A DNA stretch of 64,000 nucleotides from Ignavibacteriaceae bacterium (GTDB lineage Bacteria > Bacteroidota > Ignavibacteria > Ignavibacteriales > Ignavibacteriaceae). A program made the translations under genes and the position numbers. Positions 42,974 through 49,906 of this stretch are shown in pieces (the first letter of the stretch is position 1; each line of letters starts with the position of its first letter). Under the pieces are notes generated by a model. That model was given only the letters and a program-made list of their open reading frames with translations, did no database searches and was not told where the DNA came from. The stretch covers positions 186,001 through 250,000 of the forward strand of contig JABWCL010000001.1 in assembly GCA_013360295.1 (NCBI GenBank), written 5' to 3'.

Positions 42974-44119
42974 ATGAGTAACGGTACAAGCGACCGCCTT
43001 GTTTCTCTCGATGTTTTCAGGGGTATTACGATTGCAGGAATGATTTTAGTAAATAATCCCGGAGACTGGGGAACAGTATACGCTCCGCTTCTGCACGCTA
43101 AATGGCACGGCTGTACGCCCACTGACCTGATCTTTCCCTTCTTTCTTTTTATCGTTGGAGTTGCGATAACCCTTTCTCTGACCAAAAGGAAAATGAAGGG
43201 TGATAATATGTCAAAGCTTTACCTGCAGATCACAAGGCGCGCTCTTATCCTGTTCTTTCTTGGACTCTTTAGTGCGGCTTATCCTTTTTATAATGTGTTT
43301 TCGGGTGAATGGGTCAACTTAGCCTCACTCAGAATTCCGGGTGTTTTGCAGCGTATCGGAGTTGTATATTTTGTCGCCGCGATCCTCTTCCTGAATACTA
43401 ATATTCGTACCCAGGCAATTACTGGCGCTGTTTTACTGCTATTGTACTGGATACTAATGTCTCTCGTCCCTGTGCCCGGAGTTGGATACGCGAACCTCGA
43501 ACCGACAACAAACCTGGCGGCATATTTCGATAATCTATTATTGGGCGGTCATCTATGGTCAGCCAGTAAAGTCTGGGATCCCGAAGGTATTCTATCCACT
43601 CTCCCCGCGATTGGCACAGCGATAAGCGGAATAATGCTCGGGCACTGGCTGAATACGAATCACGATAAAATTACAAAGGTTGCCTGGATATTTGTTGCCG
43701 CGAACATACTCCTCGTGGTAGGATGGTTCTGGGATCTGGTATTTCCACTAAACAAAAGTATATGGACCAGTTCATACGTATTATGGACCTCGGGTCTTGC
43801 ACTACACTTCTTTGGGTTCTGCTATTGGTTTAATGATATTAAAGGTGTTACCTGGTGGACAAAACCCTTTATCGTGTACGGCTCGAACGCCATCACAGTC
43901 TTTTTCCTGTCGGGACTAATGGCAAAATCAATGGCAATAATTAAATGGACGAACGAAGCAGGAGAATTGATTTCTCTCAAGACCTACATCTACAAAACCT
44001 TTTATGCGCCGTTCTTCGATCCGTATTTCGCGTCTTTTATGTTCGCAATTACTTACGTTCTGCTGTGGCTTGGACTTATGTGGATACTTCACCACAAAAG
44101 GATTTTCATTAAAGTATAA
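42974..44119 (+). CDS. DUF5009/HGSNAT-like membrane acyltransferase
   Basis: 381 residues with about 10 membrane helices. AAGGA is seven bases before the ATG. The N-terminal signature RLVSLDVFRGITIAGMILVN, followed by LHAKWHGCTPTDLIFPFFLF, matches the family of heparan-alpha-glucosaminide N-acetyltransferases and DUF5009 proteins; the conserved His in HAKWHG is present. These proteins move acyl groups across a membrane onto glycans. It is the first gene of the only plus-strand block, 38 bases before the receptor-kinase gene. The acceptor is unknown. Confidence 0.88.
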   Translation: MSNGTSDRLVSLDVFRGITIAGMILVNNPGDWGTVYAPLLHAKWHGCTPTDLIFPFFLFIVGVAITLSLTKRKMKGDNMSKLYLQITRRALILFFLGLFSAAYPFYNVFSGEWVNLASLRIPGVLQRIGVVYFVAAILFLNTNIRTQAITGAVLLLLYWILMSLVPVPGVGYANLEPTTNLAAYFDNLLLGGHLWSASKVWDPEGILSTLPAIGTAISGIMLGHWLNTNHDKITKVAWIFVAANILLVVGWFWDLVFPLNKSIWTSSYVLWTSGLALHFFGFCYWFNDIKGVTWWTKPFIVYGSNAITVFFLSGLMAKSMAIIKWTNEAGELISLKTYIYKTFYAPFFDPYFASFMFAITYVLLWLGLMWILHHKRIFIKV

Positions 44120-44157
44120 CAATATCGCCTTACGTATTGAAATCCGGCTCCCCGGTG

Positions 44158-47100
44158 ATGAAGCAAAAGTTTAATCACTTTATAGTGATACCGATCTTTT
44201 TTTCTTTACTGTTCAGCACAATCCTCTTTTGGGGATGTATCAGGGAAGGAGAGAAATCTGCTCATAGTGATCATTCAACTGTGCACGATCCGTTCGTTCC
44301 GGATTCCTGGTTTAAACAAACCGAAGTCGATCTCGGGAAGAAAATTATTATGCTCTCCCCGGCTCTCGGTTATTCCATCACAAGCGGAAGAGGAAACATA
44401 AACGGACAAGTACTAAAATTCAACGGCGGTACGTGGGATGAAATCAGTTCTCACCCCTATTCAGACTTTCCTCAGATAAGTGTGGCAGACTCAAATTCCC
44501 TGATTGCCATTACACATCGGACTCATTTTGGTAATTACAAACCCGTACTCCAGCGGATAACCGGCGGTATCAGTCAGGAACTCCCCATTGCCCTCCATAT
44601 GTGGGATGAAATTGATTTTGCAATGTATAAATCTCTCTGGAATTTCGGAGGCAATAAATTTCTTGCTGCAGGACAGCAAGGATATTTATCCTTTTTCGAC
44701 GGCACAGCGTGGAATCACGTGAAGAGCCCGGTTAAAAGAGATACCCTTAAAACTCTCCTCTCCGGAGATATTAACTCCTTGTATATGTTTTCGCAGGACT
44801 CCGGCTGGGCTGTCGGTAAAGATGGGATGATACTGCAGTGCAGGAACGGAGTCTGGAATTATTATCCTTCTCCTACAAGATTTCAGTTAAATTCAATTGT
44901 TATGACCTCCTCCGAGTATGGAGTTATCGCCGGTGATTACGGTACCGTTCTGGAATTCGATGGAGTAAAATGGAAGAAAACAGACATTAATTCCTCCGAA
45001 AGACTCACCGCTGTTAAAGCTGCAGGAAGTAAAAATATATTTATATGCGGTTCGAATTCAACTCTTTTCCATCTCTATGATGGAGTTTGGCACCACAATA
45101 AATCTCTCTCAATCTTCGAAGATTCTTTTAACGATATGGAAGTTATTCAGGATGAGAACGGAAAGTTCCTGATATGGCTCATTGGTGAAGACGGGATCTA
45201 TTCTAATTCCAGCACCCTGGGTTTCTCGTTTACCAACATAACCCAGCGCGCGGGGCTGCCAGTTTATGGGAAAGGAGTACTTTTTATCCCCGCTGAAGAT
45301 AATTTCCCGGATTTGCTTATTCTCAACGAGGGAGCTAAAGCAGCTTACTACCGCAATGAAAAAGATAAAGGGTTTACCCCCGAACAAACTACATCAGGTC
45401 TGATTAATTCTATAAACGAAACGGTTGTAGCCTCCCTCAGCGATATCAATAATGACGGACTTGAAGATCTTTTCCTTTTGCAAAACAGCAAAAAATTCAA
45501 CCTTATGCTGAAAAAGGGAGAGGACGAATACATCCTTCCCTACCTCCCGCCTTCAGTGAGACTTAAAGAAACCGAAATCTACAGCATCCCTTCTGTCCAG
45601 AGTGCAGATTTTAACAATGACTCTTACCCTGATATGTATATATCCATCGCGGAAGACAACGACCAGCTTCTTGAAAACAGACAGGGGAAAAAATTCATCG
45701 ACCGGTTTGATGCTTCCGGTATATCAAAAAGTATTCCGCACAGATCTTATGGCCCTGTGCTATCGGACTTCGATAACGACGGTAGAGTGGATATATTCAT
45801 TCCTTATAATCTGCCGAAGGATGGATATATGGGGGAACTGTTCATTAATAAGGGCAATTTTAATTTTGTTAAAAAAGAGTGCGAAGCCTTTTTATCTGGT
45901 TCCTCCTCATCACTTGCTACTACTATCGCGGTCGCCTTCGATGCGAACAATGACGGCTGGACGGATATACTCCTCCACCATCAGAAGGGCAGCCCACATT
46001 TATTCCGAAACACCGGGGGAGCGGATTTTCAAAGAATAAACAACACGGGAGCACTTGATTCCCTCATATTCCACCCGGAACCACTAAACGGTTTTATGGG
46101 AACCACCGACCTCAATAACGATGGGTGGATAGACGTAATTATCGGCGGCAGATTGTTTCTGAATAACCAAGACCTGACTTTTTCAGAAGTAAATAAACAG
46201 ACAGGTGTTTCTTTTACCGGTAATCCTTCCTTCGCGGATATTGACAATGACGGTGATGTCGATATTTTCTTCGGTTCATCCAGGTGGTCGTTCGGCAAGG
46301 GAGAACGGGTAGCCCTCTTCAGAAACAACCTGAATCCGTCAGACTACTTTAAAGTTTCTCTGATCCCCAGCGCCGGTAATACTTCCCTATCGGGAACGGC
46401 ACTCTATATCACCGCTCTGAAAAATGGGAAGGTAATTTACAGACAAAAACGCGAACCGGGACTTGGGAACGCTCCAATGATTCCGCAGAATTTAGATAAA
46501 TTGATTATCGGCAAGAATCCCGGTTATAAATATGAAATCGAAGTTGTTTTCCCTTCCGGAATAATCAGGAAGATCGCACCCGCCGAATCCCAAAAAGAGA
46601 TAATAGTATATGAGGAAGACCTGTTACCCCGTGCTGCGTCTCATTTAGAGAAGCATTTAAAAAACAAAATCATTGAGATTAAGTTAGCTGAAGAGGCAGG
46701 GAAAATATTGATTCTGATCGCTCAGTTGTTCCTCTTGTTCTATTTTATCCGGATAAAACTTTTAGAGAAATACTTCCTTACATCACGGCTGTTTCTGTTT
46801 TTCTTTTTTGGGTTATTCCTGATACTGAATTTTTCATTTTCTTCAATTACTTTCTTCAGTAAAAATATACTCCCTGTCCTGAGTTTTATCCCTGCATTTT
46901 GGGGATTTATTTTCATAAGAAACTCCGCGATCAAAGCGGACAGAGAAAAGCATCTCTCACATTACAGGCTGGATGAAAAAATCGGCGAGGGAGCAACTTG
47001 TAAAGTTTATTCCGCTTATGATGTCATTAACAAGCGCAGGGTTGCGCTTAAAGTTATGAATCAGGAACTGATGGATAATGAAGAAAACAAGAAAAGGTTT

Positions 47101-47745
47101 AATCACGAAGGAATGATTCTTACAAAAATTGAATCAAGATTTGTTGCGAAGATGTATGAGTACGGCGAATTCGAGAAAAAATCATATATCGCCCAGGAAC
47201 TCCTCACAGGCGGAACCTTAAAAGATTATATTTCAACCTCCTTTCCGATTCCGAAAGAGAGAATGAAAGAACTTCTGTTATCCATAGCCTCAGGGCTCTC
47301 AGAAATTCATAACGCAGGCATAATTCATAGGGACCTAAAGTCAACCAATATACTTCTTGACGCATCAGGCAATGCACGTATAACTGACTTCGGCCTCTCA
47401 AGATCATCACTTATCAGTTCATTTACTTCCGCTGGAACCATTCTGGGCACATTGGGCTTCTGCTCTCCTGAACAGATTACAGGATCTTCCGTTAATCATC
47501 AGACGGATATTTTTTCGTTCGGGGTTATAATGTATGAGCTGGCAACCAATAAACTCCCCTTCTCCGGAGACAATGAAATTATGCTGATCCATTCAATTTT
47601 TAATGACACTCCGGCTGAGATAGGTGCTTTCAATCCGAGTATATCGGAATTTTACCGTTCCGTCTCACTGAAATGCCTCGAGAAAAATGCATCCGACCGC
47701 TATTCGGATATGCAGCCGCTGCTTAATGATTTATATAAGCTTTAA
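44158..47745 (+). CDS. Receptor-type Ser/Thr protein kinase with FG-GAP/ASPIC ectodomain
   Basis: 1195 residues from the ATG at 44158 (an upstream TTG at 44137 is less likely). A lipoprotein-like signal ends at WGC (Cys27). Residues of about 55-350 look like a beta-propeller (repeated GWAVG/GVIAGDYG-type turns). Six FG-GAP/VCBS calcium-site motifs follow at about 429, 484, 537, 595, 651 and 694 (DINNDGLEDLF, DFDNDGRVDIF, DIDNDGDVDIF and others). An ASPIC/UnbV-like domain covers about 728-805. Three hydrophobic helices (about 849-867, 873-900, 903-921) place the C-terminus in the cytoplasm. The kinase domain (about 935-1195) has a Gly loop (IGEGATCKV), VALK Lys at about 965, HRDLKSTN, DFG and a SPEQ variant of APE; it should be active. 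The extracellular ligand is unknown. Confidence 0.85.
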   Translation: MKQKFNHFIVIPIFFSLLFSTILFWGCIREGEKSAHSDHSTVHDPFVPDSWFKQTEVDLGKKIIMLSPALGYSITSGRGNINGQVLKFNGGTWDEISSHPYSDFPQISVADSNSLIAITHRTHFGNYKPVLQRITGGISQELPIALHMWDEIDFAMYKSLWNFGGNKFLAAGQQGYLSFFDGTAWNHVKSPVKRDTLKTLLSGDINSLYMFSQDSGWAVGKDGMILQCRNGVWNYYPSPTRFQLNSIVMTSSEYGVIAGDYGTVLEFDGVKWKKTDINSSERLTAVKAAGSKNIFICGSNSTLFHLYDGVWHHNKSLSIFEDSFNDMEVIQDENGKFLIWLIGEDGIYSNSSTLGFSFTNITQRAGLPVYGKGVLFIPAEDNFPDLLILNEGAKAAYYRNEKDKGFTPEQTTSGLINSINETVVASLSDINNDGLEDLFLLQNSKKFNLMLKKGEDEYILPYLPPSVRLKETEIYSIPSVQSADFNNDSYPDMYISIAEDNDQLLENRQGKKFIDRFDASGISKSIPHRSYGPVLSDFDNDGRVDIFIPYNLPKDGYMGELFINKGNFNFVKKECEAFLSGSSSSLATTIAVAFDANNDGWTDILLHHQKGSPHLFRNTGGADFQRINNTGALDSLIFHPEPLNGFMGTTDLNNDGWIDVIIGGRLFLNNQDLTFSEVNKQTGVSFTGNPSFADIDNDGDVDIFFGSSRWSFGKGERVALFRNNLNPSDYFKVSLIPSAGNTSLSGTALYITALKNGKVIYRQKREPGLGNAPMIPQNLDKLIIGKNPGYKYEIEVVFPSGIIRKIAPAESQKEIIVYEEDLLPRAASHLEKHLKNKIIEIKLAEEAGKILILIAQLFLLFYFIRIKLLEKYFLTSRLFLFFFFGLFLILNFSFSSITFFSKNILPVLSFIPAFWGFIFIRNSAIKADREKHLSHYRLDEKIGEGATCKVYSAYDVINKRRVALKVMNQELMDNEENKKRFNHEGMILTKIESRFVAKMYEYGEFEKKSYIAQELLTGGTLKDYISTSFPIPKERMKELLLSIASGLSEIHNAGIIHRDLKSTNILLDASGNARITDFGLSRSSLISSFTSAGTILGTLGFCSPEQITGSSVNHQTDIFSFGVIMYELATNKLPFSGDNEIMLIHSIFNDTPAEIGAFNPSISEFYRSVSLKCLEKNASDRYSDMQPLLNDLYKL

Positions 47746-47902: not shown

Positions 47903-48106
47903 ATGAAAGCCCAAATTCTTATAATTGACGATAATACCGGTGAACTGAAAAAACTGAGAGAAATCCTCGCCAGTTATGGGTATGGTATATTGACCGCGAC
48001 AGATCCTGTAATCGCGGAACAGATTTCAAAAAAACTGCCGGTGAAGTATGTATTGTCAAAAAAAGAGTATGTAAATTTCTCCGAAAAAGAGCCCACAAAA
48101 AGCTGA
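47903..48106 (+). CDS. Truncated/degenerate response-regulator receiver (67 residues)
   Basis: An ATG at 47903 (a GTG at 47894 is a less likely start). The sequence ILIIDDNTGELKKLREILAS, then YGYGILTATDPVIAEQI, matches the first two-thirds of a receiver domain, with the acidic pair DD kept. Where the phosphoacceptor Asp should follow (LVLLDxxMP), it reads KYVLSKKEYVNF, so there is no phosphoacceptor; the chain then ends 20 residues later. It may be a remnant of a response regulator or a small non-phosphorylated interaction module. It sits between the receptor kinase and the sigma-54 activator. Confidence 0.55.
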   Translation: MKAQILIIDDNTGELKKLREILASYGYGILTATDPVIAEQISKKLPVKYVLSKKEYVNFSEKEPTKS

Positions 48107-48184: not shown

Positions 48185-49906
48185 GTGTCAGAATCAGAAG
48201 CCAAACAAACAATCGAAAAAAAAGTACAGGATTACTCAGCGGGTTTCACATCTTTCCTGAATGAAGTGAACTCATCTTTTCCGGAAAAGAAAGAAATAAA
48301 AAGCCTGACGGCAAACGCCCTGAAGGAATTCCTCGTTTTTACCCGAGAATTAAATCAGTTGCTTAAGAACCTTTCAGATCTGTCCCCGGGCACCTCAGAG
48401 GAAGTTGAGAAACTTAAGGATGAAATTAAAAAACTCGAAACCCTTTACTCAGCCGGGATCACCTTTACATCAAAATCAGAACGGACTGAACTTCTCGAAA
48501 CCGCCATTGACATCGTTGTAAAAGCACTGAATGCTGATACGGGATTTATTATGCTATCGGATGAAAAAGGTGAACTGGAATCGATCTATTCCAAGAACTC
48601 CAGTATCTCACTGAATCCGGATGCTTTAAGGATAAGCACAAGCATTGTTAAAGAATCCCTGAAAAGTACAGGTCCGATACATTTAGAAAACATTAAAGAT
48701 TCTGCCCCCCTTGCTCAGCAGCGGAGTATAATTCAATTAGGGATTTCATCCGCGATTTGCGTACCCATGATTTCCAGCAGCCGTGTTTACGGAACAGTTT
48801 ATCTTGACCGCCGGAATATTAATGATCCTTTCAAAGGCAAAGACTTAAAATACCTTATTTCGTTTACCAATCAGATCGTTAAAAATCTTGATCTCTTTTC
48901 TCAGATTGATTCTATTAAAAAAAGAGAACTTGCAGATTCCGTTCAAAAAATGGAAGATATAAGGAACAATTTCCGTAGTTCGGAAATTGTTGGATCAAGT
49001 AAGAAAATTTTTGATATCCTCAGGATCGCTTCGAAAGTTTCCAAGTCTGATGCCTCGATAATGTTATATGGCGAAAGCGGAACCGGTAAAAACCTGATTG
49101 CTAAAGTAATCCATAATAACTCTAATCGAAGTCGAGGACCTTTTTACACCGTCGACTGCGGGTCGATACCATCTGAATTACTTGAGAGTGAATTATTTGG
49201 ATATGAATCAGGTGCTTTTACGGGAGCAAACAAAACTAAACCGGGAAAACTCGAATTAGCGGATAATGGGACCCTCTTCCTTGATGAGATCGGAGAAATG
49301 AGTCTTTCACTCCAGCCAAAATTATTGAGAGTTATTCAGACGAAAGAATTCGAAAGGCTCGGAGGAACCACTCCGATAAAAATAAATGTCCGGATTATCG
49401 GAGCGACAAATAAAAATCTTACTGAACTTGTTGAAAAAGGAGCTTTCAGGGAGGATCTGTTTTACAGGTTAAAAGTGATTGAGATGGTAGTCCCGCCGCT
49501 TCGTGAGAGGCGGGAGGATATTTCAGACCTCGTTGATTTCTTCACTGCGCATCATTCATCTGAGAAAAAGTTCACCGTCTCGCACGAAGCCTTACTGGCG
49601 CTGGAAAGTTATGACTGGCCGGGTAATATCCGTGAACTGGAAAATGTAATTCTCAGATGTATTGTCCTAGCACAGGGAAATGTAATCGGGTTAGAAGAAC
49701 TTCCGCCAGAGATCGTTTCGGATCTCGCGCCGCTCGAAACAGTGAATTCTGTAAAAACTCTCTCGGAGGCTGAGGATGATTTCAGAAGGATGTATATTAT
49801 GAAAATTTTAAAAAAGACTCAATCCAAAGCTGAGGCCGCGCAGCTGCTCGGAGTAAACCGCACACACTTTTATAAAATACTTAATCAACTCGGTATTGAC
49901 GCCTGA
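48185..49906 (+). CDS. GAF-domain sigma-54-dependent transcriptional activator (NtrC family)
   Basis: 573 residues, start GTG at 48185 (an in-frame TGA lies six bases upstream). Residues of about 40-90 are coiled. GAF domain at about 90-235. The AAA+ core carries Walker A GESGTGKN at 296-303 (Asn in place of the common Glu), the sigma-54-contact loop GAFTGA at 343-348, Walker B LFLDEIGE, and an arginine finger FREDLFYRL at 421-429. A Fis-type helix-turn-helix ends the protein (about 545-570). It has no receiver domain; a small degenerate receiver is encoded just upstream. It activates sigma-54 promoters, none of which I could identify nearby. Its 3' end overlaps menD antisense by 22 bases. 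Confidence 0.95.
   Translation: MSESEAKQTIEKKVQDYSAGFTSFLNEVNSSFPEKKEIKSLTANALKEFLVFTRELNQLLKNLSDLSPGTSEEVEKLKDEIKKLETLYSAGITFTSKSERTELLETAIDIVVKALNADTGFIMLSDEKGELESIYSKNSSISLNPDALRISTSIVKESLKSTGPIHLENIKDSAPLAQQRSIIQLGISSAICVPMISSSRVYGTVYLDRRNINDPFKGKDLKYLISFTNQIVKNLDLFSQIDSIKKRELADSVQKMEDIRNNFRSSEIVGSSKKIFDILRIASKVSKSDASIMLYGESGTGKNLIAKVIHNNSNRSRGPFYTVDCGSIPSELLESELFGYESGAFTGANKTKPGKLELADNGTLFLDEIGEMSLSLQPKLLRVIQTKEFERLGGTTPIKINVRIIGATNKNLTELVEKGAFREDLFYRLKVIEMVVPPLRERREDISDLVDFFTAHHSSEKKFTVSHEALLALESYDWPGNIRELENVILRCIVLAQGNVIGLEELPPEIVSDLAPLETVNSVKTLSEAEDDFRRMYIMKILKKTQSKAEAAQLLGVNRTHFYKILNQLGIDA

Follow-up and report, generated by a model that had tools for sequence, protein, structure and literature searches.

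The window, a 64,000-nucleotide stretch of the genome of an Ignavibacteriaceae bacterium (contig JABWCL010000001.1), encodes a receptor-type Ser/Thr kinase at positions 44158 to 47745. This locus raises two questions. What kind of receptor places FG-GAP repeats ahead of a Ser/Thr kinase, and where in the cell would its signal go? All features described below lie on the forward strand.

Architecture of the receptor kinase

The gene starts with an ATG at 44158 and encodes 1,195 residues, the stop codon being included in the coordinates; an alternative TTG start at 44137 would add 7 residues. A sequence-only reading had proposed a receptor kinase with a lipoprotein signal, FG-GAP repeats, six calcium-type loops, three membrane helices, and an intact kinase. 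Pfam searches, alignment, hydropathy, and loop counts bore this out. The lipoprotein-type signal (44158 to 44238) closes with Cys27, which is conserved in the family, and the family hydropathy peak spans residues 11 to 27. A Cys closes the first hydrophobic stretch at all 19 readable N termini among the 21 orthologue rows; the N termini of L093 and L095 start too late for this reading and were left out of the count. The protein's own lipobox, FWGC, is atypical. Because the signal ends in a conserved Cys, we predict a lipoprotein.

The same reading had placed a propeller at the N terminus, and here only the repeats were recovered. The region from 44305 to 45207 (residues about 50 to 350) is YCF48/BNR-like and would form a propeller by inference. 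All 21 rows gave a PSII_BNR (YCF48-like) match at E ≤ 0.01 (best, 9.6e-11). However, the window protein's own match (residues 270 to 371, E of 0.0016) is below the cut-off, and the AF2 confidence of the N-terminal third was mostly <50, so that its fold was not obtained. The FG-GAP β-propeller follows at 45214 to 46332 (residues about 353 to 725). FG-GAP_3 matched with an E value of 6.9e-25, in five stretches at E ≤ 0.1 and four at E ≤ 0.01 (Pfam). A regular expression found six DxNNDGxxD-type loops in the window protein; each of the other 20 rows has 3 to 7.

The next segment, at 46360 to 46620 (residues about 735 to 821), had been called ASPIC/UnbV-like. It aligns with CRTAC1 by fold and with FG-GAP relatives, most of which (32 of 38) have UnbV, and Pfam matched UnbV/ASPIC in 5 of the 21 rows. 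However, the window protein itself gave no Pfam match to UnbV/ASPIC at an E limit of 0.1, and we describe the domain as degenerate. UnbV/ASPIC was also absent from a search of the organism's own genome, a search that matched none of 14 control genomes either.

Three transmembrane helices (46696 to 46917; residues 847 to 863, 878 to 894, and 904 to 920) were placed by family hydropathy. The window protein's own maxima (2.49, 2.42, and 2.21) coincide with the family-mean peaks. A stricter per-protein scan gave three helices in 13 of the 21 rows, two in 7, including the window protein, and one in a single row. The Hanks-type Ser/Thr kinase domain (46963 to 47715; residues 936 to 1186) matched Pfam Pkinase with an E value of 4.5e-51. 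K965, E984, H1057-R1058-D1059, N1064, D1077-F1078-G1079, P1104, and E1105 are invariant across the 21-row alignment. With a Pkinase domain that holds the catalytic Lys, HRD, and DFG, the protein classes as a Hanks-type kinase, and we predict it to be active. HisKA and HATPase_c had no match in the sensor protein at E ≤ 0.1 (Pfam), which sets it apart from the histidine kinases of two-component systems; it may nonetheless work like a two-component sensor. Since the whole architecture is conserved, a chance assembly is excluded.

Membrane topology and ectodomain fold

The mean K+R count is 4.15 at residues 864 to 878, 0.10 at 899 to 904, and 3.19 at 921 to 936. This charge bias puts the predicted kinase domain on the cytoplasmic side. 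The charge distribution, together with the fold matches to CRTAC1 and integrin, supports the earlier proposal of a transmembrane receptor with the kinase inside and the FG-GAP/UnbV ectodomain on the opposite side. The window also encodes an Omp85 protein, and we therefore took the cell to be an apparent diderm, in which the ectodomain should be periplasmic.

An AlphaFold model of the ectodomain was built with 23 of the 38 FG-GAP relatives. CRTAC1 was its best fold match by Foldseek and VIA-align: model residues 326 to 794, equal to protein residues 353 to 821, superposed with a Z score of 30.9 over 434 residues (rmsd of 3.0). Integrin alpha chains also scored high, alpha-V chains reaching Z of about 24 to 25 over model residues 328 to 703. 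The best Foldseek matches were CRTAC1 and fungal GlcNAc lectins; the ectodomain of BT4673 (PDB title, putative one component system) was the ninth row. Therefore, the ectodomain, previously termed integrin-like, is in its modeled fold nearer to CRTAC1 than to integrin. The model has the FG-GAP propeller of a CRTAC1-type protein. It has this propeller in common with integrin alpha chains, as a shared predicted fold and not as membership of that group.

Occurrence of the FG-GAP kinase

A homologue count had been proposed as a check. Full-length orthologues were present in 20 other genomes of the 164 in the order (identity, 32 to 39%), and, when copies truncated at the edge of a contig are counted too, the FG-GAP kinase was present in 24 of the 164. 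Six more genomes had it among 391 of the class outside the order, and all 6 also had the activator described below. These searches scored the best few candidates per genome (4 kinase and 8 activator candidates in the order, 2 and 3 in the class), so misses are possible, and lengthy lists of matches were truncated. Most of the compared genomes are drafts.

The fusion of FG-GAP to a kinase had been called unusual. In favor of this, Pkinase was not among the 25 listed of 28 Pfam families matched in the 38 FG-GAP relatives from named genomes, and a search of open-licence papers found no description of an FG-GAP Ser/Thr receptor kinase. PMC1262709 mentions WD and PQQ propeller kinases and has 0 occurrences of FG-GAP. 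On the other hand, the fusion is conserved in many genomes, and a separate FG-GAP kinase family occurs in f21 (4 genomes), outside the kinase clade of the window protein. The f21 family looks independent of the window's family.

A co-inherited sigma-54 activator

Downstream of the kinase, at 48185 to 49906, lies a gene for a sigma-54 activator of 573 aa, composed of an N-terminal region, a GAF domain, an AAA+ domain with GAFTGA, and a Fis-type HTH. The Sigma54_activat domain matched with an E value of 6.1e-69, and GAFTGA is invariant in a 19-row alignment, as in a sigma-54 activator. Its best NCBIfam model, NifA, scored 363.9 bits against a cut-off of 528.85, below the level of a NifA equivalog. 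RpoN is present.

At a threshold of E ≤ 1e-150, activator orthologues were found in 23 of the 164 order genomes, all of them among the 24 with the FG-GAP kinase. In the 24th, G141, no activator orthologue was found, and the kinase is no more than a fragment at the edge of a contig. The co-occurrence has a Fisher p of 3.6e-27, not corrected for descent. In genera g1, g56, g58, and g61, some members carry module genes and others carry none. Two further class genomes have the activator: G689, with a kinase end at a contig edge, and G753, with a kinase of another head 15 bp upstream.

In 17 of the 23 order genomes, kinase and activator are neighbors on the same strand, separated by nothing more than the half receiver and one further small ORF. 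With each start set at the earliest possible codon, the gap is −1 to 31 bp in 14 of these 17 loci. Of the remaining six, three have 3 to 4 ORFs between the two genes and three have them on different contigs; in G010 and G011 the genes are whole on both contigs. In f39, activator and half receiver lie side by side in 4 of 4 genomes, with the kinase on another contig. A weighted promoter scan for the −24/−12 consensus found no consistent site upstream of the kinase, activator, or half receiver or of frequent neighbors (the F3 lipoprotein, families F9, F10 [a barrel], and F4, amtB, and glnK). The best score, 7.0 of 9.1, was upstream of the G121 kinase and was reached by 2.1% of 234 background genes.

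The half receiver

Between kinase and activator, at 47903 to 48106, is a gene for a protein of 67 aa (family A3). It resembles the first half of a receiver and has Lys at the acceptor Asp position. Its Response_reg match covers positions 1 to 47 of 111 with an E value of 0.0058, below the cut-off. By its sequence, then, this is not a complete receiver with an acceptor Asp. A model from one sequence had a mean confidence of 78.6, and its fold matches had E values of 0.013 or worse.

The half receiver was found at ≥87 bits in 22 of the 164 order genomes, all inside the 23 with the activator; the next match scored 41.8 bits. It was also found in 7 of the 8 class genomes with the activator outside the order. 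With the 4 of 4 f39 genomes added, 33 of the 35 genomes that have the activator also have the half receiver; none was found at the level sought in G121 and G689. At the acceptor position of the 33 copies, Glu occurs in 10 and Asp in 4, all from f39; Asp is missing in 29. The dN/dS ratio was 0.04 to 0.12 in 4 of 5 pairs (dS saturated in two), and the fifth pair had one nonsynonymous and no synonymous change. In G010 and f39, where the kinase lies elsewhere, half receiver and activator remain neighbors. In G144, G150, G124, and G011 the two are on separate contigs, which end close by in G124 and G011. These four genomes indicate that a fixed operon is not needed.

Sensor heads and the kinase tree

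Trees were built from 48 tblastn hits of >200 residues without stops, plus the query; a second tree dropped 4 of the 49 rows (two long kinases of the organism's own genome and two duplicates). The kinases of G753, G232, G376, and G425 carry a Reg_prop/Y_Y_Y head and fall in the same kinase clade (support, 100/98). Activator and half receiver are kept in two other lineages where the clade kinase bears Reg_prop/Y_Y_Y. At the level of sequence, then, both partners persist when the kinase carries another sensor head. G084 is the exception: its clade kinase has a Reg_prop head, and no activator orthologue was found (best, 8.5e-110). The tree needs 3 changes for the Reg_prop head, of which the starred branches force 2. 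A single origin, with the five rows held together, was not rejected (p-AU, 0.065), so the head may have been exchanged once or several times.

The 4 genomes with the f21 FG-GAP kinase had no activator orthologue at 1e-150 (best, 1.3e-132). At 3 of the 4 f21 loci, a histidine kinase and an OmpR-type regulator are encoded next to the FG-GAP kinase, which indicates that a related head can function in a different context.

Neighboring genes

A DUF5009 membrane protein (Pfam) is encoded just upstream of the kinase, at 42974 to 44119. Locus comparison found it next to the kinase in four genomes, all from the window's family (G000, G058, G059, and G011), and at no other compared locus, and it is probably outside the core module. 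We considered the F3 lipoprotein (about 256 aa) as a fourth part. It directly follows the half receiver in 6 of 18 listed loci (G110, G150, G091, G126, G147, and G138) and is present in 19 of the 23 module genomes. Since 15 of the 141 remaining genomes have it too, we regard it as associated and not core. In G145, G147, and G144, P-II and ammonium transporter genes, identified by Pfam in L087, separate the kinase from the activator; in G148 they adjoin the activator. These neighbors are confined to genus g61, and a role in nitrogen control was set aside as local context. A defense role was also rejected: among the best 25 of 34 kinase matches, PADLOC covered the kinase domain only, and for the activator it covered only the AAA+/HTH part. 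The sequence-only reading made no mention of a conserved module with the sigma-54 activator and half receiver.

Discussion

Sequence comparison establishes the anatomy, predicted topology, and intact catalytic residues of the receptor, and the co-inheritance of three genes across genera and families, partly unlinked. Such co-inheritance shows a shared pathway and not the direction or chemistry of a signal. The reading we favor, and hold to be somewhat probable, is a three-gene signaling module in which a membrane Ser/Thr kinase with an exchangeable periplasmic sensor governs a sigma-54 activator of its own and the half receiver plays an accessory part. In this scenario, the ectodomain would be anchored by lipid in the periplasm, as its lipobox suggests, and would bind a calcium-dependent ligand. 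Binding may alter how the three membrane helices pack and so switch the cytoplasmic kinase. The kinase would then control the adjacent activator, the simplest route being phosphorylation of the activator's N-terminal/GAF region. The activator in turn would open sigma-54 promoters elsewhere in the genome. The half receiver may bind the activator or be a kinase target.

The half receiver might instead stand at the center, as the direct target of the kinase, with its modified form binding or releasing the activator and replacing the cis receiver of NtrC-type activators. Its presence with the activator in 33 of 35 genomes, its place beside the activator in G010 and f39 where the kinase is elsewhere, and the Glu in 10 of 33 copies and Asp in the four f39 copies are consistent with this. 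We nevertheless consider it unlikely, given that 29 of 33 copies lack the acceptor Asp, that four genomes have the half receiver on another contig than the activator, and that it was not found in two more. Thr31 is invariant in a 17-row alignment, yet receivers often have Thr at the equivalent position.

Through its GAF domain, the activator could respond to a small ligand and need no phosphorylation. Kinase and activator might then share a regulon without mutual signaling, the activator reading its GAF ligand and the kinase modifying other proteins. The separation of the two genes in G010, G011, and f39 and the clade kinase without activator in G084 would fit, but the near-exact co-inheritance, the 14 loci with gaps of −1 to 31 bp, and the retention of the activator after a head change make this improbable. 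It is very improbable that the protein serves mainly in adhesion or matrix binding and that its kinase is a minor or inactive appendage. CRTAC1 and integrin folds are typical of extracellular binding proteins; however, the catalytic residues are invariant in 21 rows, the ectodomain is probably periplasmic, and the tie to a transcription activator is strong.

The favored module has parallels in known systems. PknB and StkP share with the window protein a Pkn-type kinase, a membrane anchor, and a sensor across the membrane, and its best PDB sequence matches were StkP and then PknB. However, in these PASTA kinases the kinase domain is N-terminal and a single helix precedes a C-terminal ectodomain, whereas here the ectodomain comes first, with three helices and a lipoprotein signal. 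The NCBIfam PASTA-kinase model scored 246.8 bits against a cut-off of 450, below equivalog level. CRTAC1 and FG-GAP/UnbV proteins have an FG-GAP propeller and then UnbV, an order that the window protein, with its putative UnbV-like domain, appears to share, but in the window protein the propeller heads a membrane kinase. The Reg_prop + Y_Y_Y sensors known from Bacteroidetes also join a propeller ectodomain across the membrane to a cytoplasmic kinase and a transcription output, and the same head is borne by our kinase clade in G753, G232, G376, G425, and G084. Those sensors are of the hybrid two-component type, with histidine kinase and receiver, in contrast to a Ser/Thr kinase with a separate sigma-54 activator.

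The activator resembles the NifA/NtrC group in its GAF, AAA+ with GAFTGA, and Fis HTH, but its gene is linked by inheritance to those of a Ser/Thr kinase and a half receiver. Myxococcus Ser/Thr kinases act on FHA-type sigma-54 activators by a similar logic. The window system differs in its large periplasmic sensor and half receiver, and no FHA domain was found in its activator at E ≤ 0.1 (Pfam).

Taken further, and only tentatively, these genes may form a Ser/Thr kinase pathway that rivals two-component systems, with swappable FG-GAP/UnbV or Reg_prop/Y_Y_Y heads, a dedicated sigma-54 output, and a free-standing half receiver, passed on as a separate gene, that couples them. The joint inheritance of receptor kinase, activator, and half receiver suggests an undescribed signaling pathway. 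To our knowledge, a dedicated transcription output has been identified for few bacterial Ser/Thr receptor kinases. In this case the genomes point to an output, the sigma-54 activator, and to a third partner, the half receiver, so that receptor, target, and accessory are directly testable. The change between FG-GAP/UnbV and Reg_prop/Y_Y_Y heads suggests that Ser/Thr and histidine kinases share one periplasmic sensor pool. A half receiver that is stable as a separate protein, if true, would also put a very common fold to a new use.

Domain architecture and predicted structure of the kinase

The kinase gene runs from an ATG at 44158 to a stop at 47745 on the forward strand and encodes 1,195 residues. 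Pfam placed a Pkinase domain at residues 936 to 1186 (E = 4.5e-51) and FG-GAP_3 in five stretches (E = 6.9e-25), with a PSII_BNR match under its cut-off. There are six calcium-type loops. Pfam found no UnbV/ASPIC match in the window kinase and matched this domain in 5 of the 21 rows of the kinase family alignment.

The family-mean hydropathy has a signal peak at positions 11 to 27 and three helices, at 847 to 863, 878 to 894, and 904 to 920. Because the K+R counts are 4.15 at 864 to 878, 0.10 at 899 to 904, and 3.19 at 921 to 936, the kinase side and the loop between the first two helices are predicted to lie inside. A stricter per-protein threshold gave three helices in 13 of 21 proteins, two in 7 (including the window kinase), and one in 1. 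A Cys stands at the signal end in all 19 N termini that can be read. The window also encodes an Omp85 protein; we therefore assume a diderm cell and take the ectodomain to be periplasmic.

The ectodomain was modeled over residues 28 to 828, with an input that included 23 of the 38 FG-GAP homologues that had been retrieved from named genomes. The pLDDT was about 80 across the FG-GAP part and mostly below 50 in the N-terminal third. The top PDB match was murine CRTAC1 (Foldseek E = 9.2e-22), which VIA-align superimposed over 434 residues with a Z score of 30.9; the aligned stretch of the model (326 to 794) covers the propeller and the UnbV region. Next came fungal GlcNAc lectins in Foldseek, whereas VIA-align placed aldos-2-ulose dehydratase and LGI1 second, at a Z of about 28, ahead of integrin alpha-V chains (Z about 24 to 25). 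The sequence-only reading had called the ectodomain integrin-like. As a statement of fold this agrees with the model, but CRTAC1 is the closer match.

The kinase and the activator are inherited together

A full-length FG-GAP kinase is present in 21 of 164 genomes of the order, the window's own included, and pieces cut by contig ends occur in three more (G148, G128, and G141). The 20 orthologues are 32 to 39% identical to the window kinase. The full-length kinase of genome G144 (locus L093) has one in-frame TGA near its start, a possible frame break. In the 391-genome class set, kinase matches at E ≤ 1e-150 were found in 22 genomes, 6 of them outside the order. The window's own genome also encodes a second kinase (G000:C20:61999-63654; L002, L006, L013), in which YCF48/BNR-like repeats follow the kinase domain, so that its order is opposite to that of the window kinase. 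Several genomes of the order carry Ser/Thr kinase genes in runs, a few kb apart (e.g., G018:C12:159476-173308 and G060:C73:24529-33575).

The next large gene after the kinase encodes a sigma-54 activator with GAF, AAA+, and Fis-HTH domains (48185 to 49906). Its GAFTGA motif is invariant across 19 alignment rows, and RpoN is present in the window's own genome. A sigma-54 promoter scan for putative targets of the module returned zero. Activator orthologues (E ≤ 1e-150) occur in 23 of the 164 genomes, every one among the 24 with an FG-GAP kinase (Fisher p = 3.6e-27, computed without correction for descent). The two genes are same-strand neighbors in 17 of the 23, spaced by -1 to 31 bp in 14 of these 17; they are separated by three to four ORFs in 3 genomes and lie on different contigs in 3, where the G148 contig stops inside the kinase gene. 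Across the class, 22 of the 24 genomes with the activator (of 391) are kinase genomes at E ≤ 1e-150; of the other two, G689 has the end of a kinase at a contig edge and G753 has a kinase with a different head immediately upstream of the activator. The activator of G121 (L122) has a TAA within the matched stretch, a possible frame break.

A half receiver accompanies the activator

Between the two genes lies a 67-residue frame (47903 to 48106) that matches Response_reg at positions 1 to 47 of 111 only (E = 0.0058, under the cut-off). Aligned across 17 copies, it is a short protein of 64 to 76 residues. Its predicted fold is b-a-b-a-b-a (single-sequence model), and the model can be superimposed on one half of a receiver, DivK for example, over about 50 residues (rmsd 1.5, E = 0.013 or worse). 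At 87 bits or more, the half receiver was found in 22 genomes of the order, all among the 23 with the activator, G121 being the one without. The best match below this set scored 41.8 bits, and the weaker matches, among those listed, were mostly frames of at least 200 residues, like ordinary receivers. Outside the order, 7 of 8 activator genomes have it. Four genera (g1, g56, g58, and g61) have kinase, activator, and half receiver in some members and none of them in others. In G144 and G150 the half receiver and the activator are on separate contigs, and so linkage alone does not account for the co-inheritance.

The window half receiver has a Lys at the acceptor-Asp position of receivers. Among 33 copies, this position is Glu in 10 and Asp in 4, all from family f39 (L253, L254, L255, and L256). 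Because they retain the Asp, the f39 copies could in principle be phosphorylated at this position, though the receiver's second half is missing. The dN/dS was 0.04 to 0.12 in four of five pairs, with dS saturated in two; the fifth pair had one non-synonymous and zero synonymous changes.

The sensor head has been exchanged

Genome G753 encodes a kinase with a Reg_prop plus Y_Y_Y head, 15 bp upstream of the activator, and f39 genomes G232, G376, and G425 have kinases with a head of this type; the fourth, G469, has a kinase end only. In all four f39 genomes the kinase and the activator (E = 3.0e-232 to 1.7e-235) sit on separate contigs, and the half receiver adjoins the activator in convergent orientation. 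The Reg_prop/Y_Y_Y kinases and the window kinase group form one clade (support 100/98; G469 fragment left out). At least two head exchanges in this clade are favored by the tree, but a single exchange was not rejected (p-AU 0.065).

The divergent FG-GAP Ser/Thr kinases of family f21 (Pfam; L147 to L150 in G173, G178, G169, and G164) fall outside the clade, and no activator orthologue was found in their genomes (best E = 1.3e-132). Since the activator is kept with a Reg_prop head inside the clade and is absent with FG-GAP kinases outside it, its distribution for the most part tracks the kinase domain. However, G084, which has a clade kinase with a Reg_prop head and no activator orthologue, counts against this.

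Three of the four f21 loci (all but L149) have a histidine kinase and an OmpR-type regulator directly adjoining the FG-GAP kinase, on the opposite strand. In G116, the same kind of head as in the window kinase, FG-GAP plus UnbV, is fused to HisKA_3/HATPase_c (L151:6292-9591; HATPase_c under its cut-off), and the gene after it (L151:9632-10273) encodes a LuxR-type response regulator.

Other neighbors and a model for signaling

In several genomes the half receiver is followed by a member of a 256-residue lipoprotein-like family (L102:13596-14366 and ten relatives), which occurs in 19 of 23 module genomes versus 15 of 141 others; three members scanned had no Pfam match above the cut-off. In genus g61 (L087, L092, L093, and L197), opposite-strand genes for P-II, a small unknown product, and an ammonium transporter separate the kinase from the activator or adjoin the latter. 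A DUF5009 membrane protein gene (window 42974 to 44119) is upstream of the kinase in four genomes of the window's family; any link to acylated sugars would be speculative.

Each part of the module belongs to a known kind. Searches of an open-licence literature library turned up no case in which a C-terminal Hanks kinase, a CRTAC1-like head, a sigma-54 activator, and a half receiver are combined. Sequence comparison establishes the anatomy, the co-inheritance, and the exchange of heads. In the most probable scheme, a ligand in the periplasm, with calcium in the loops of the propeller, would set the kinase state via the three helices. The kinase would in turn control the activator encoded next door, presumably by phosphotransfer, and the half receiver would assist.
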